Shown: positions 1 to 19,435 of the stretch, piece after piece
Layout: each line of letters opens with the position of its first letter
Numbering within the stretch: position 1 is the first letter of the stretch
Assembly: GCA_029862085.1 (NCBI GenBank)
Contig: JAOTXZ010000011.1
Span: forward strand, 1-37,075
DNA length: 37,075 nt
Origin: Candidatus Nitrosopumilus sp.
GTDB lineage: Archaea > Thermoproteota > Nitrososphaeria > Nitrososphaerales > Nitrosopumilaceae
Reading direction: 5' to 3'
Translations under genes and position numbers: made by a program
The notes under the pieces: generated by a model
Databases searched by the model: none
What the model saw: only the letters and a program-made list of their open reading frames with translations
Told to the model about the DNA's origin: nothing

Positions 1-1556
1 AGTTGGCCTGTGATAATAAATGTAATCAAACCACCAATTAATAAACCGACAATTATGGCAGGGTTTGTTAAACTATAATCTAGTACTAAAATACCTTCAA
101 AAACATGGGCTGCTTCAAATTGAAATGCCTGAATCATAGCAAGTGCAGCTAGAGCAGCACTGGCAATTGCAAATCCCTTCGTAACTGCTTTAGTTGTATT
201 TCCAACAGCATCAATTTCATCAGTAACTTTACGATTTTCTTCACCCATTCCGGTCATCTCAACAATTCCACCGGCATTATCAGCAATTGGACCAAATGCA
301 TCAATACTAAGAACTATTCCTGCAAGACTCAACATTGCCATTGCAGTCAATGCAGTTCCAAAGATTCCATAAAGCACAGGGTCTGCACCTTCTGGGGCTG
401 CTGCTGAAGCGATGCTATAAGACAAAATAATTGCAACAACTAGTGCAATCATAAAGGGCCCAGTAGATTGCATTCCTTTGATAATACCCATCAAGGTTAA
501 GGATGCATATCCCCATTTTGCAGAATCTGCAATTTCCTGTACAGGTTTTTGTTTGTAACTAGTATAGTAGTCAGTAATTTTTTGAATTACAGGAACCAAA
601 ATTACACCTAGTATAGTAGAACCAAACAAGGCATATGACGCATCAGAATGGCCAATAAATTGTGTAATAAAGACAAAGTTTAACACAATAGCAATTGCTG
701 CCGAAACATAAAATGAACGATTAAGGGGTTTCATCACATCAGTGATATTCTTAGAGCCAACAATGACAACACCAATTATTGATGCAATCATTCCAGAAGA
801 ACCAATTAAAATAGGATATAAGAAAAAGTTTGGCGCTCCAATTAACGCAGCAATTAGTAAGGCTGCAAGCATTGTAACAATATAAGATTCATAGACATCT
901 GAACCCATCCCAGCTGCATCACCTACATTATCTCCCACATTATCGGCAATAGTTGCTGGATTTCGTGGATCATCTTCCGGAATGTTTACTTCAACTTTTC
1001 CTACTAAATCTGCACCCATGTCGGCTGCCTTGGTAAAGATACCCCCTCCAATTCTTATGAATAGTGCAATAAGACTCGCTCCAATTCCAACCCCTGCAAT
1101 TGTTATTGGATCTGGATAAATCATGTAAAGTCCAGTAATGGCCAAAAGTGCCATTGCGGGTACCGCTAGACCAACTGTTGCTCCACCTCTGAAGGCCATA
1201 GCAAATGTCTTCCCTAGACCACTGCCGCTTAGGTTTGCTGCTCTAACTGCGGCTTTAACGGTAATTTTTAACGAAATAATTCCTGCAACTGCTGAGAGTG
1301 CTGCGCCTACTGCAAATGCGATACCATTTGATGGTTGAAGGAATATGGCAATAATAAGCGATAATGCTATTGCAACAGGAACAATAATTTTCATCTCCCT
1401 TTTTAGAAATGCTGCTGCTCCTTCTTTGACTGCGTTCGAGATATCCATCATCTCTTTTGTTCCAGAAGGTTGTTTTGTAATCCATGCAACCAAACCACCT
1501 GCAACTAAAAATGATGCAATTCCTGCCACAAATGGTAGGATTTCAGCAATTTCCAT
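1..1556 (-). CDS. hppA: Membrane-bound H+-translocating pyrophosphatase, K+-independent type (3' end cut by window)
   Basis: This integral membrane enzyme hydrolyses cytoplasmic pyrophosphate and pumps protons outward. The reading frame is open from an ATG at 1556 to the window edge, giving about 518 codons of a family usually near 680-700 residues, so the C-terminus is missing. Visible signatures are the substrate loop ADNVGDNVGDAAGMGSDVYE (about 897-953), the loop DAFGPIADNAGGIVEMTG (about 252-305) and GNTTKAVTKG (about 175-206). In that last motif Lys and Thr stand where K+-dependent enzymes carry Ala and Gly, which marks the K+-independent class by established family rules. The N-terminus has a hydrophobic helix after MEIAEILP. 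It lies 36 nt downstream of the SprT-like gene on the same strand. The family call is firm; sequence beyond the edge cannot be judged. Confidence 0.95.
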   Translation of the reverse strand, partial: MEIAEILPFVAGIASFLVAGGLVAWITKQPSGTKEMMDISNAVKEGAAAFLKREMKIIVPVAIALSLIIAIFLQPSNGIAFAVGAALSAVAGIISLKITVKAAVRAANLSGSGLGKTFAMAFRGGATVGLAVPAMALLAITGLYMIYPDPITIAGVGIGASLIALFIRIGGGIFTKAADMGADLVGKVEVNIPEDDPRNPATIADNVGDNVGDAAGMGSDVYESYIVTMLAALLIAALIGAPNFFLYPILIGSSGMIASIIGVVIVGSKNITDVMKPLNRSFYVSAAIAIVLNFVFITQFIGHSDASYALFGSTILGVILVPVIQKITDYYTSYKQKPVQEIADSAKWGYASLTLMGIIKGMQSTGPFMIALVVAIILSYSIASAAAPEGADPVLYGIFGTALTAMAMLSLAGIVLSIDAFGPIADNAGGIVEMTGMGEENRKVTDEIDAVGNTTKAVTKGFAIASAALAALAMIQAFQFEAAHVFEGILVLDYSLTNPAIIVGLLIGGLITFIITGQ

Positions 1557-1592
1557 AGTATACTCAGCTTGCCTAAATCTGGGAAATATAAA

Positions 1593-2039
1593 TCAAATAC
1601 CAGAAACTTTGCTTCTTTTTTTGTATGGCAAAAATGTTTTTCCCCTTAATCCCTGTCTTACTAGTTTGTTGAATCTCCTACCATGAGCGAGGTAAGGAAA
1701 TCTCAAATGGATTAGTTCATGCACCAAGGTATCTTCAAGATTTTTTTCATCAGGAATTTTTCTTACATTAATGAATATCAGATTATGCTGGAAATATGAT
1801 ACTCCATAATATTTGTAGGCAGAAGTTCTCCTACCTTCAGTCATTTCTTTGGGCATATCTAAAACCTCTTTTGTGGTAAGAAGAACTTGTGGTTCTGGAA
1901 TAGAAAAACGACTTGAGTAGATCCCAATTTTTTCTAATATCTGTAACCTTAGTTCAGGATCTAATTTCACAATTATTTTCCAAATTATTGATGTATATCC
2001 TACAAAGTTAATTTTTTGCACAAATTGAGTATAACGCAT
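1593..2039 (-). CDS. SprT-like zinc metallopeptidase-domain protein
   Basis: A 148-residue protein with the zinc-binding motif HELIH followed seven residues later by another His (HELIHLRFPYLAHG), then RRFNKLVRQG. This resembles the SprT/Wss1/YgjP-like metallopeptidase group, where the downstream H-G-x-x-F supplies the third ligand and part of the fold. Family members act on DNA-protein crosslinks or have unknown substrates; I infer only a small cytoplasmic zinc peptidase-like fold. There is no signal peptide and no additional DNA-binding tail is visible. The C-terminus is basic (PYKKRSKV). The first Met at 2039 gives a plausible N-terminus, although the start could lie a few codons inside. 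It precedes hppA on the same strand; a functional link is not evident. Confidence 0.75.
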   Translation of the reverse strand: MRYTQFVQKINFVGYTSIIWKIIVKLDPELRLQILEKIGIYSSRFSIPEPQVLLTTKEVLDMPKEMTEGRRTSAYKYYGVSYFQHNLIFINVRKIPDEKNLEDTLVHELIHLRFPYLAHGRRFNKLVRQGLRGKTFLPYKKRSKVSGI

Positions 2040-2180
2040 TTGATATAGCCGCCATCAGGTTATTTTGAGAGTTTAATGAATAAATTGAACTTGAGAAAAA
2101 AATCCTCCTACTTCCCATGCATGATTTTTCCGGAGAGATTAACCTTGAGAGATTATTATGATTGGTTGAAAAATCAATCC

Positions 2181-2561
2181 TCAATTAGAGATAACATTCA
2201 CAAGTTTTTCAAGGTCTACTGGTTTTTCCAAAAAACCATTAACCCCATCTTTTCTTAGTAAATTCTTTAATTGTATTTCTGGAAGATGTTTTCCAGAAAA
2301 TATAAAGATATTTTGATCTTTAAGAATATCAGCTACCGCTAACATTTCTAATACACCAAATCCGGTGACGATAGGCATATTGACATCCAAAAGAATGACA
2401 TCAAATTGTTCCCTTCTGATTTTCTCCAGTCCCACAATAGGATCATTTGTTACTATGGTTTCAAAACCCTGCCCATTGAGGAATTTTGAGAGCATGTTTG
2501 TGGTCTGTTCATCATCATCAATTACGAAAATTCTCACAAATAGTTTGATTTGTTTCCCCAT
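2181..2561 (-). CDS. Stand-alone response regulator receiver (CheY-like) protein
   Basis: A 126-residue single receiver domain. Visible landmarks are the acidic pocket in FVIDDDEQT, the phospho-acceptor Asp in ILLDVNMP, a Ser in IFIFSGKH at the position of the switch Thr/Ser, and the conserved Lys in FLEKPVD. No output domain follows, so it would act by protein contact (CheY/Spo0F style) or as a phosphate relay. No histidine kinase is encoded next to it, making it an orphan regulator here. The ATG at 2561 is used; another start a few codons inside is possible because MGKQIKLFVR precedes the usual first strand. A perfect inverted repeat lies 53-69 bp upstream and may be its operator. Confidence 0.9.
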   Translation of the reverse strand: MGKQIKLFVRIFVIDDDEQTTNMLSKFLNGQGFETIVTNDPIVGLEKIRREQFDVILLDVNMPIVTGFGVLEMLAVADILKDQNIFIFSGKHLPEIQLKNLLRKDGVNGFLEKPVDLEKLVNVISN

Positions 2562-2613
2562 TTAGGAAGGCGTTTGTTCATCTAAACAAAATTTTTTCAA
2601 TTTTCCAGTGTCA

Positions 2614-2630
2614 TATCATTCGAAATGATA
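2614..2630. promoter_or_regulatory. Perfect 7-bp inverted repeat upstream of receiver gene
   Basis: TATCATT and AATGATA flank a CGA spacer, giving a 17-bp dyad. It lies 53-69 bp upstream of the receiver gene start, just beyond where the core promoter should sit. Position and symmetry fit a binding site for a dimeric regulator; that is inference. The rest of the spacer (2562-2769) is AT-rich and shows no gene. Confidence 0.3.
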
Positions 2631-2769
2631 AAAAATAATGACTTGCCTAAAAAATTTCAAAAAAAATCAAATTTTTTTTTGAAATAAAAGGTTAAGGGTG
2701 AATTAACGGGGTCAGAGTCTTTTGTAGTGTAATCACGAATCATACAGCCACCGTCTCATCACTCCCCAA

Positions 2770-3267
2770 TTATTCCATTAAATCAAGTAGTTTTTGTGTT
2801 TTATTTCTAATTTCTGGAGTTACTTTTACAATTACCAATCCCTCGTTTGGTTGGCCGTACATTACTACTGAGTTTGGAGGGGCCAAAATACACACGGGCA
2901 ATACTAAAAGATCCTCCTCTCCTTTTACCATTATTCTGACTGGAGTTTGGGAATTGAATGCTTTTTTTATTGTATCAATGCTTTGTGGGGTTATTTCTGC
3001 TGGGGGATTATTACAGGTTAGTAAAGTAGAGATTCCTAAATTTTCTGGAATAGTGTGTTTAATTCTTTTTTCCTGACCGTCGATTATCTGTACAGATGGC
3101 ATCATATCAAATTCCATCATCTTTTGCGTGGTTCTATCACCAACAGTTATGACAAAACTGTTTTTTTCAATTAATTTTTGGATATTTTGTTTGGTTGTAT
3201 CTTTTTCAGGCAATAAAATACCAAGGGGATTTTTCATCTTGTCCCTTTGGGAATCAGGTAATTTCAA
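2770..3267 (-). CDS. GTP-dependent dephospho-CoA kinase (DUF359 family)
   Basis: A 165-residue protein matching the archaeal DUF359 family, shown in Thermococcus to be the GTP-dependent dephospho-CoA kinase that carries out the last step of coenzyme A synthesis. Family landmarks in order: VGDRTT near residue 43, the IIDGQEKR segment, NPPAEIT, GEEDLLVLPV near residue 116, and YGQPNEGLVIV near the C-terminus. The acidic GEEDLL motif is the most diagnostic. The extreme start is TTG at 3267; an ATG at 3237 (MKNPLGILLP) is an equally plausible start. It begins 8 nt after the mrp-like stop, so the two are probably co-transcribed. Unlike bacterial CoaE, this family is not a classical P-loop kinase. 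Confidence 0.88.
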   Translation of the reverse strand: MKLPDSQRDKMKNPLGILLPEKDTTKQNIQKLIEKNSFVITVGDRTTQKMMEFDMMPSVQIIDGQEKRIKHTIPENLGISTLLTCNNPPAEITPQSIDTIKKAFNSQTPVRIMVKGEEDLLVLPVCILAPPNSVVMYGQPNEGLVIVKVTPEIRNKTQKLLDLME

Positions 3268-16763: not shown

Positions 16764-17852
16764 TTAATTTACAATTACTTTACCAGTCATCCATGGATGA
16801 AGCATACAATGATAATCATATTCTCCAGATTCAGCAAAATTATGCTCCCAGGATTGATTTACCATCATCATTCCTGAATCAAAAAGGCCATCATGATTTG
16901 ACGGTGTCCCACTTGTTACTGTGTGAGCTGCAGAATCAACATTATTCCAAATTACGGTTTCACCTGAACTAATTTCAATCTGATAAGGAAGATAGCATTC
17001 ATTCGATTCTTGGCATCCTGGTGCACCAGAACCTATTGCCATTAAAACTTCGGCAGGACCTGAAGATATCTCTTCAACCATTGGTTCTTCAGAGGGTTCT
17101 TCTGGAGTTGCTTCTTCTGGAATCACGACCATTTCTTCAAATTCAATTACAATTATTTCACCTGTCATCCAAGGATGCACCATACAAAAGTAAGGATAAG
17201 TTCCTGCTTCATCAAAAGTAAATTCATAAGTATTTCCTGACATGAACAAACTACTATCAAAAACACCTGATGGGCCATCAGCGGAACTTCCTGCAGTTAC
17301 TGTGTGGGCCGCAGAATCAATATTATCCCAAGAAACAGTATTACCCACCCAAATTTCTATCGAGTATGGAAGATAGCATTCATTAGTTTCTTCACATCCA
17401 GGAACTCCGCTTCCTTCTGCTAATGATACAACGTGAGTTTGAGGCGCTATAGGTGCTGCCATAGTGGAACTTTCTGGTGTTGGTTCTGGTGTTGGTTCTG
17501 GTGTTGGTTCTGGTGTTGGTTCTGGTGTTGGTTCTGGTGTTGGTTCTGGTGTTGGTTCTGGTGTTGGTTCTGGTGTTGGTTCTGTCACAGCACCAGTTGT
17601 TCCTGGTTCAGCGACAACGCATTCACCAGGATAAGATAATTCAACATCTGCAACATGCAACATACACAAATTGCCATACGTATTTCCATCCACACCACAT
17701 TGGGGTAACCACTCCATTGTACAAATAGTTGGTTTTTCTCCAGTTGGCATTGCAGGAGCTTCTGAAAGATAACCAGGATCTGCTGCAATCATACCTAAAA
17801 TACCTGCAATGAGCAAACCAACTACTATAATTATTCCATATGTAAGATTCAT
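16764..17852 (-). CDS. Secreted Kazal-like plus tandem cupredoxin protein with PEPT linker
   Basis: A 362-residue exported protein with an unusual domain string. A hydrophobic N-terminal helix (residues 4-23) is followed by a Kazal-like domain at about 41-80 with Cys 44, 52, 63 and 78; the core spacing C-x7-C-x6-Y-x3-C is that of Kazal protease inhibitors. Next is a PEPT linker (91-127), then two plastocyanin-like domains. Type 1 copper ligands are complete in both: H183, C223, H226, M229 and H310, C349, H352, M355. Each also has a nearby Cys pair (153/159, 280/286) likely to be a disulfide. It would sit outside the membrane and could shuttle electrons, as small blue copper proteins are thought to in ammonia-oxidizing archaea; the Kazal function is unknown. 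It starts 1 nt after the HEAT gene stop. Confidence 0.9.
   Translation of the reverse strand: MNLTYGIIIVVGLLIAGILGMIAADPGYLSEAPAMPTGEKPTICTMEWLPQCGVDGNTYGNLCMLHVADVELSYPGECVVAEPGTTGAVTEPTPEPTPEPTPEPTPEPTPEPTPEPTPEPTPEPTPESSTMAAPIAPQTHVVSLAEGSGVPGCEETNECYLPYSIEIWVGNTVSWDNIDSAAHTVTAGSSADGPSGVFDSSLFMSGNTYEFTFDEAGTYPYFCMVHPWMTGEIIVIEFEEMVVIPEEATPEEPSEEPMVEEISSGPAEVLMAIGSGAPGCQESNECYLPYQIEISSGETVIWNNVDSAAHTVTSGTPSNHDGLFDSGMMMVNQSWEHNFAESGEYDYHCMLHPWMTGKVIVN
17473..17583. repeat. Perfect 12-bp tandem repeat, nine units (PEPT linker)
   Basis: The plus-strand unit TCTGGTGTTGGT repeats nine times without a mismatch from 17473 to 17580, then the next partial unit begins. On the minus strand it encodes Pro-Glu-Pro-Thr repeats. 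The lack of even synonymous differences suggests copy-number change by slippage. The same unit recurs near 25121-25206 in another gene. Confidence 0.95.
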
Positions 17853-17853
17853 C

Positions 17854-18342
17854 TTATCCCCCCGTTAATTTAGCAAACTTTTCATTTTTACTAAGTTTCT
17901 CCATAAATTGAATATTAGATAAAGCTACTACCGCAGATTCTACAACTGGTTTATCAGGATCATTTAGAGCTTGTTCTAAAGCGTTTTTTGCATCTGTTGA
18001 ACCAATGACCCCAAGTGCAATTGCAGCTTCATGTCTTACAAACATACTAGGATCATTTAGAGTTGAATTAACAAGTGGAGATATTCCACTAGAAAGACAC
18101 ATCTGCCCCAATGAAAATGCAGCTTCATGTCTTACCAGCTCATTTTCATCATGTTTGAGAACTTTGGCAATATAGGGAACTTTATCTTCGCCACCAAAGT
18201 CTACCAAGATGCAAGTTGCTCTCGTTCTAATAACATAATCAGGATGGTCTAAAAGATTTACAAAATATTGTGTATCTTTTTGTTCATATTTAGCCTCCAT
18301 TGCTGCAAAAAGTTGAAGTCTATCTTCGGTTACTACTTGCAT
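17854..18342 (-). CDS. HEAT-repeat protein with paired His-Glu motifs
   Basis: A 162-residue all-helical protein of about four HEAT/PBS-lyase-like repeats. Two consecutive repeats carry the motif RHEAAxxLG: VRHEAAFSLGQM (H72, E73) and VRHEAAIALGVIG (H104, E105), 32 residues apart. In eukaryotic deoxyhypusine hydroxylase, four His-Glu pairs in HEAT repeats bind a di-iron centre, and each half has two pairs 33 residues apart. This protein therefore resembles one half of such a site. Whether it binds metal, dimerises or only scaffolds is inference. A TATA-like element lies about 28 bp upstream of the ATG at 18342. The Kazal/cupredoxin gene follows after 1 nt, so they are co-transcribed. Confidence 0.85.
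   Translation of the reverse strand: MQVVTEDRLQLFAAMEAKYEQKDTQYFVNLLDHPDYVIRTRATCILVDFGGEDKVPYIAKVLKHDENELVRHEAAFSLGQMCLSSGISPLVNSTLNDPSMFVRHEAAIALGVIGSTDAKNALEQALNDPDKPVVESAVVALSNIQFMEKLSKNEKFAKLTGG
17857..17863 (-). promoter_or_regulatory. G-rich ribosome binding site for the cupredoxin gene
   Basis: The last codons of the HEAT gene read GGGGGGA, followed by the stop TAA, one G and the cupredoxin ATG. The purine run is 4 nt from the start codon and could serve as a Shine-Dalgarno element for reinitiation. Confidence 0.4.
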
Positions 18343-18766: not shown

Positions 18767-19435
18767 TTGTTGAGCGCAGTAATAGGACAAAAATCGCCCA
18801 ATCTAGGGGTATCAGAATGGATTCAAGGAGCTCCAACTAGTTTAGAGCAGGAAAAAGACAAGATTGTTTTAGTTGAGGTGTTTCAAGTAAATTGTCCTGG
18901 ATGCTTCATGAATGCAATTCCAGAGGCAATAGAGATTTACAACAAGTACAAAGATGATGGAGTAAGAGTTTTAGGAATAGCAACAGCTTTTGAGGATTAT
19001 GATAAAAATACTCTAGAAAATTTGAAAATGTTGGCAGAAACGGGAGAAGTAATCGGAGAGACAAAAAAAGCACTTTCGATGTATGGACAATTACAGGATG
19101 GTAACAAATTGCCTTTCAAAATTCCTTTTCCTCTAGGGATGGATAATTTATCCAAAGTTGATGGAGAAGCAAGCCAAGAACAGATTATGAAATTTATTTA
19201 CGCTCAACTTCCAGAGTTTGACTCACAACCTGAAGATTATAGAAACCAAATTATTCAAAGAGTAAAGGATCATTTTAAATCAAAAGAATTTTCTGCAGAA
19301 ACCTTTGAGAAATTTTCATTGCAAGGAACTCCATCTACAATCCTTATTGATAGAAAGGGAATCCTAAGGGATGTCTCATTTGGAGGATCTGGACATTTAG
19401 AGTCAATGATTCAAAAATTAATTGCTGAAGGATAG
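18767..19435 (+). CDS. Thioredoxin-like (TlpA/redoxin-type) protein
   Basis: A 222-residue thioredoxin-fold protein. The active-site motif CPGC (C43, C46) sits in EVFQVNCPGCFMNAIPEA. A central insertion runs from YKDDGVRVLGIATAFEDYD to the helical region near residue 180. The cis-Pro region is GTPSTILIDRKGILRD, typical of TlpA/AhpC-TSA-like redoxins. No signal peptide or membrane anchor is visible, so a cytoplasmic disulfide reductase or peroxidase-like role is inferred. The start is a TTG at 18767 with no strong support; the conserved domain begins around residue 15-25, so a slightly later start is possible. Confidence 0.85.
   Translation: MLSAVIGQKSPNLGVSEWIQGAPTSLEQEKDKIVLVEVFQVNCPGCFMNAIPEAIEIYNKYKDDGVRVLGIATAFEDYDKNTLENLKMLAETGEVIGETKKALSMYGQLQDGNKLPFKIPFPLGMDNLSKVDGEASQEQIMKFIYAQLPEFDSQPEDYRNQIIQRVKDHFKSKEFSAETFEKFSLQGTPSTILIDRKGILRDVSFGGSGHLESMIQKLIAEG

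Follow-up and report, generated by a model that had tools for sequence, protein, structure and literature searches.

A conserved single-arm HEAT-repeat protein of Nitrososphaeria related to deoxyhypusine hydroxylase

A stretch of 37,075 nucleotides from Candidatus Nitrosopumilus sp. (GCA_029862085.1, contig JAOTXZ010000011.1), the whole of which is here called the window, encodes at 17854..18342, on the minus strand, a HEAT-repeat protein of 162 residues. The question raised by this gene, here termed gene A, is whether its product represents one half of a deoxyhypusine hydroxylase (DOHH). According to passages of two earlier papers, archaea have no known DOHH orthologue even though some of them contain hypusine (PMC5178350; PMC6105217), and a 2021 review repeats, in one of its passages, the absence of a known archaeal orthologue (PMC8153317). 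The open-licence PMC literature, preprints excluded, yielded no report of an archaeal DOHH, and a report outside that literature may exist. The present data answer the question in part: A carries an invariant pair of DOHH-like His-Glu motifs on what is modelled as a single four-repeat arm, its sequence is related to that of DOHH, and it likely provides, taken by itself, a metal-binding half-site.

The open reading frame (ORF) of gene A starts with ATG at 18342, and the plus strand in that frame contains many stops. Its product matches the Pfam family HEAT_2 (E = 3.6e-31); no NCBIfam model reaches its cut-off, the best being NblB at 40 bits versus the 300 required. The source genome, 1.3 Mb in size and 79% complete, has Nitrosopumilus and Nitrosarchaeum as its nearest named relatives. 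The first motif, LVRHEAAFSLGQM, holds H72 and E73 (codons at 18124..18129, minus strand) and the second, FVRHEAAIALGVIG, holds H104 and E105 (codons at 18028..18033, minus strand), both sets of coordinates being computed from the ORF start and the two motifs standing 32 residues apart. An AlphaFold2 model built on a 32-row alignment has a mean predicted local distance difference test (pLDDT) of 92.8 and places helices at 24-30/36-49, 52-64/68-81, 84-96/100-113 and 116-125/131-149, a pattern interpreted here as four HEAT repeats, the His-Glu pairs falling on helix B of repeat 2 (68-81) and of repeat 3 (100-113). ORF and model agree here with an earlier note on this DNA, which had placed the two pairs, 32 residues apart, in consecutive HEAT repeats. 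That note had also described DOHH as an enzyme with four such pairs, two per half and about 33 residues apart, and the human sequence bears this out, with motif His-Glu dipeptides at 56, 89, 207 and 240 and a spacing of 33 within each half. In the literature, DOHH is described as having eight HEAT repeats, divided equally between two arms, with four His-Glu sites (PMC8153317), namely H56-E57, H89-E90, H207-E208 and H240-E241, with six residues anchoring the diiron centre (PMC9117371). The hallmark of a DOHH arm, a conserved His-Glu on helix B of both the second and the third repeat, about 33 residues apart, is found in A. The four-pair single chain and the eight-repeat, two-arm architecture are not, as each chain has two pairs and, in the model, four repeats in one arm, and the A matches listed in searches of 61 and of 300 genomes all lie in open frames of at most 237 aa. 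Since A fails these features of the whole DOHH chain, it is termed here a DOHH relative of the single-arm kind and not a DOHH.

The motifs are conserved wherever A could be followed. Orthologues occur in 42/61 genomes, the source genome included, at a cut-off of our own choosing (E < 1e-25; the next weaker match is a fragment of 37 residues at 4e-18), in 56/300 genomes sampled from the phylum once four weak matches to other proteins are excluded, and in 287/400 genomes of the class (E up to 1e-20), the last of which rules out a broken or strain-specific gene. The 221 loci whose A ORF matches at E up to 1e-20 gave, with L026 excluded, 138 distinct sequences, one of which (L243, 70 residues, a second copy of the broken gene of L026) stops short of the motifs. 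In every one of the remaining 137, which are 41-100% identical to the source protein (P0001), H72, E73, H104 and E105 are unvaried and the pairs stand 32 residues apart; orthologues without both pairs, which the earlier note had named as the observation that would undo its reading, were not encountered among them. As 22/162 positions are invariant, four named positions would all be so by chance with p = 2.6e-4, if positions are taken as exchangeable. R71, G79, Q80, R103 and G111 are likewise invariant. Of these, G79 is equivalent to the Gly of the LGQ motif in human DOHH (N arm, G63; C arm, G214); a review assigns substrate binding to G65 and G214 (PMC9117371). In six deep relatives the first A motif reads HEA(A/S)YSLGQLG, near the HEVGYVLGQL of the DOHH C arm. 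Within the HEAT_2 loci of relatives, 17 of 29 HEAT ORFs have a pair 32 residues apart (15 being A and two a paralogue, B, described below); the pair is present in 0/12 ORFs of the other HEAT families at these loci and in 0/14 ORFs at 12 plasmid HEAT loci of bacteria and euryarchaea. A generic HEAT protein with a chance His-Glu is ruled out by the invariance together with these pair-free controls. Searches for relatives of A among plasmids (at 1e-6) and among viral contigs returned no match. The A gene of G011 (L026, L243) is the only orthologue seen with in-frame stops (one TGA, one TAA), reflecting either a sequencing error or a decayed gene; it was left out of the pair count, and G011 stays among the 42 A-bearing genomes.

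A relationship to DOHH is also apparent outside the motifs. In a sequence search of the Protein Data Bank (PDB) with A, DOHH (4D4Z) is the best natural match (E = 4.8e-21), after six sequences with designed alphaRep segments, and a Foldseek search with the A model likewise returns DOHH as the best natural match (E = 1.1e-5, TMq 0.73, root-mean-square deviation 4.2 over 139 columns). Conversely, human DOHH used as a query against the 300 phylum genomes (E up to 1e-5) matched 57: all 56 A-bearing genomes, with A outranking the paralogues in each, and G330, which has a single weak match. Against a profile made from the two arms of human DOHH, 39 A rows score 48.0-77.6 bits for the best domain, and 32.6-61.5 bits when the His-Glu letters are masked (XX). 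On the same best-domain measure, the profile gives 8.9-30.0 bits for six HEAT proteins of the phylum that are HE-free, 7.9-22.6 bits for the 12 pair-free HEAT ORFs of relatives (one of which is the same protein as one of the six) and 6.6-37.1 bits for the 14 plasmid HEAT ORFs, such that 37/39 A rows lie above every HE-free control and 2/39 below the best one. Judged by best-domain scores, A and DOHH are related in sequence beyond generic HEAT character and beyond the His-Glu letters themselves. Phylogenetic trees point the same way: with the His-Glu columns kept (35 rows), the DOHH arms and A join at 93/90, and in a second tree, without the four His-Glu columns (34 rows) and with B_L203 dropped for its long branch, the DOHH arms group together and with A at 96/88, B and an HE-free HEAT family falling apart from them.

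The pathway that would supply a hydroxylase with deoxyhypusine, namely deoxyhypusine synthase and an initiation factor 5A with a modifiable lysine, is present in the genome of A. The synthase family (DS, PF01916) occurs in 60/61 genomes, mostly in two copies, and the archaeal factor (aIF5A) of the source genome retains the modifiable lysine in the sequence SKPGKHGAAK. In G184, a deep relative, 75 bp separate A (L195:3042-3542, plus strand) from a DS gene divergent to it (1932-2966, minus strand), beyond which stands a second one (1026-1949, plus strand), with Pfam E-values of 4.2e-90 and 6.1e-91 for the two. These two copies are only about 25% identical, and one may therefore have another substrate. 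The same locus (L195:1026-5757) carries LDcluster4 (SLOG), ferritin-like and SCO1 genes on the other side of A. With respect to oxygen, heme-copper oxidase subunit I is found in 40/42 A-bearing versus 11/19 A-lacking genomes (Fisher p = 7.7e-4, uncorrected for shared ancestry), the two A-bearing genomes without it being 72-79% complete; this association fits an O2-dependent enzyme and is no proof of one.

A model may be proposed on this basis. Each A chain, from sequence and predicted structure, would be a HEAT arm of four repeats, of which the second and third each bear a His-Glu pair on their B helix. Two chains may face each other in the manner of the two DOHH arms, and the four His-Glu pairs of the dimer could then enclose a di-iron centre that activates O2. 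The likeliest substrate would be deoxyhypusine on aIF5A, made by the deoxyhypusine synthase of the same genome, and A would thus supply the missing DOHH activity of ammonia-oxidising archaea and their aerobic relatives. Eukaryotic DOHH may in turn be a duplicated and fused form of an A-like arm, a tentative suggestion drawn from one small tree. As a whole, the model, in which a DOHH relative with one arm forms a dimeric di-iron oxygenase that probably acts on aIF5A, seems to us finely balanced, with the scale tipped slightly towards doubt. A bolder version, in which A is the archaeal DOHH of Nitrososphaeria, homodimeric and unduplicated, its arm of the ancestral type of eukaryotic DOHH, and in which paralogues B and C represent additional di-iron oxygenases of the half-site type, perhaps able to pair with A, is offered tentatively, as a proposal more readily doubted than accepted.

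Several observations weigh against this model. A does not have the Glu of the second DOHH motif (HEAGEALG/HECAEALG), position 108 being I, V or A throughout the 137 sequences. The VIA-align comparison of A with DOHH gives a Z of 13.7 (140 aligned), on a par with AP-2 beta and the PP2A scaffold; YibA (14.6) and CpcF (14.3) score slightly above DOHH, and designed alphaReps score above it as well; as DOHH is thus tied with other HEAT/ARM chains, fold alone is no discriminator. The half-DOHH reading of the earlier note is supported in part, by the conserved pairs, the half-architecture, the best natural match, the masked similarity and, in one genome, the DS neighbour; VIA-align does not set DOHH apart. 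When the PDB is searched with an A profile, DOHH ranks eighth, after alphaReps and a designed HEAT trimer. Whole-protein scores of long HE-free HEAT arrays reach 66.8 and 87.4 bits, at least as high as those of A, each being the sum of several weak domains. The alternative tree that unites B with DOHH is not rejected (p-AU 0.143), and the DOHH rows of the tree, whose narrow sampling comprises, apart from DOHH, no HEAT proteins of eukaryotes or bacteria, have an odd composition and long branches. Among the other A loci examined, none has a DS gene in its flanks, which extend over at most about 1.5-4 kb and are often limited by a contig end. Within the order of G184, the oxidase lies above the family cut-off in 5/6 A-bearing versus 19/38 other genomes, an association short of significance (p = 0.20). 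Finally, the control genome of S. acidocaldarius has no HEAT_2 match and Sulfolobus makes hypusine, according to a passage in PMC9599864; A is therefore not a general archaeal solution, and deoxyhypusine hydroxylation in Sulfolobus is probably carried out by another kind of protein.

An alternate scenario would retain the DOHH-like di-metal site, in a homodimer of A or, where B or C is present, in a heterodimer, and direct it to a substrate other than aIF5A, for example another protein side chain or a small molecule. This we regard as unlikely, though deserving of attention. The source genome encodes two further single-arm proteins with His-Glu pairs 32 residues apart, B (G000:C35; L045:1919-2422, minus strand) and C (G000:C36; L204, a 192-aa ORF, minus strand), and three such proteins in one genome suggest more than one job. 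Foldseek superposes the B model on DOHH at 2.1 Å (141 columns) and gives this match the highest TMq of those listed, and in PDB searches DOHH stands at the top of all matches for B and for a B/C profile alike. In addition, B and C retain the HExxE of DOHH, whereas A, missing the second-motif Glu, does not, and the neighbours of A within its own family include no hypusine genes. However, the profile puts A nearer to DOHH than either paralogue, the masked B and C rows scoring 2.2-31.9 bits, no better than controls, and the position of A beside a DS gene in G184 also speaks for a link to hypusine. Further, B and C are found in only 10/61 and 4/61 genomes, respectively, and always alongside A. In G006 (L205) the two lie about 2 kb apart. 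An obligate A-B heterodimer as a general rule is unlikely, given B in 10/61 versus A in 42/61 genomes; a heterodimer where both occur is possible.

Alternatively, A may be a non-catalytic HEAT scaffold or adaptor, its His-Glu pairs serving a structural role or the binding of a partner, with no metal involved. The level scores of DOHH and scaffolds such as AP-2 beta in VIA-align speak for this explanation, but it sits poorly with two pairs that are invariant at DOHH-equivalent positions in 137 sequences, that are both kept in 10/10 rows of the B/C alignment, and that have no counterpart in the other HEAT proteins examined; we therefore consider it improbable.

The neighbours of A suggest yet another role. 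One base pair past the A stop is the start codon of the gene that the earlier note assigned to a secreted copper protein (16764..17852, minus strand), with two cupredoxin-like domains recognised by eye and, between these and an N-terminal Cys-containing part, a tandem PEPT repeat, also seen by eye. Divergent from A is a thioredoxin/AhpC-like gene (18767..19435, plus strand; family name by eye). In loci of the own family of the source genome and its close named relatives, the copper protein adjoins A in 13/20 and the redoxin-like gene in 18/20 (L154, one of the two misses, has nearly no DNA on that side), and A is often tail to tail with a rad50-like gene; in loci of other families, copper protein and redoxin-like gene are each found in 0/12. 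The 20 loci comprise eight of family f1 and 12 of close named relatives whose family is not stated by the tool; the count as a whole drew on 12 of 80 loci of named relatives and 20 other loci, L041 and others being left out, and four A matches of f72 (G346, G358, G362, G364) lay outside the reading. The operon partner described in the earlier note is real in the window, but the adjacency is not conserved. A maturation of the copper protein or of another redox centre by A, for which the 1-bp gap and the 18/20 redoxin-like neighbours would speak and which that note had entertained, is rejected as the main explanation because the copper neighbour is not conserved, and, with the DOHH site described as binding iron in a passage of PMC9117371, it appears very improbable.

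A conserved half-DOHH in aerobic Nitrososphaeria, adjoining deoxyhypusine synthase in one lineage, thus provides a concrete and testable candidate for the archaeal DOHH step, and searches for a two-arm protein may have missed it on account of its one-arm form. It further offers a model by which a HEAT scaffold may become a di-iron oxygenase through duplication and fusion.

Among known systems, other short HEAT proteins provide a first comparison. An HE-free HEAT_2 family of 190 aa in the same archaea (L046, from the source genome, and L246) belongs to the same repeat family as A and is similar in size; no His-Glu was present in the copies read, and its best-domain scores to the DOHH-arm profile are 8-23 bits versus 33-61 for A with the His-Glu letters masked. 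On plasmids of Methylobacterium, Pseudanabaena and Nostoc (L269, L270 and L274), a pair-free HEAT gene, annotated at about 320 aa, stands after a small ferredoxin/4Fe-4S gene, and an Mrp/NBP35 gene then follows the HEAT gene in two of the three. CpcE/CpcF and NblB resemble A in their short HEAT_PBS repeats, and CpcE and CpcF assemble as two chains into one complex (5n3u), but the sequence match of CpcE to A is weak (E = 0.06 in the PDB search). The source organism is not known to be a phototroph. A PBS lyase HEAT-like family, arCOG02966, is mentioned in a passage of PMC6697440; no link between it and A is drawn here. The closer likeness is to DOHH (human, PDB 4D4Z; yeast Lia1), with which A shares the four-repeat HEAT arm and the His-Glu in repeats 2 and 3, a like spacing of the pairs (32 residues in A versus 33 in DOHH), an LGQ after the first motif and, in the alignment, an RxRAxxxL..GG in repeat 1, at 31-40% identity mostly over DOHH residues 23-134 for the A rows matched by human DOHH. 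The two differ in the second-motif Glu, which A lacks, in a Phe that most A sequences have where DOHH has Tyr (Tyr in 6/137), and in construction, A being one arm of 162 aa with two His-Glu pairs and DOHH two fused arms with four.
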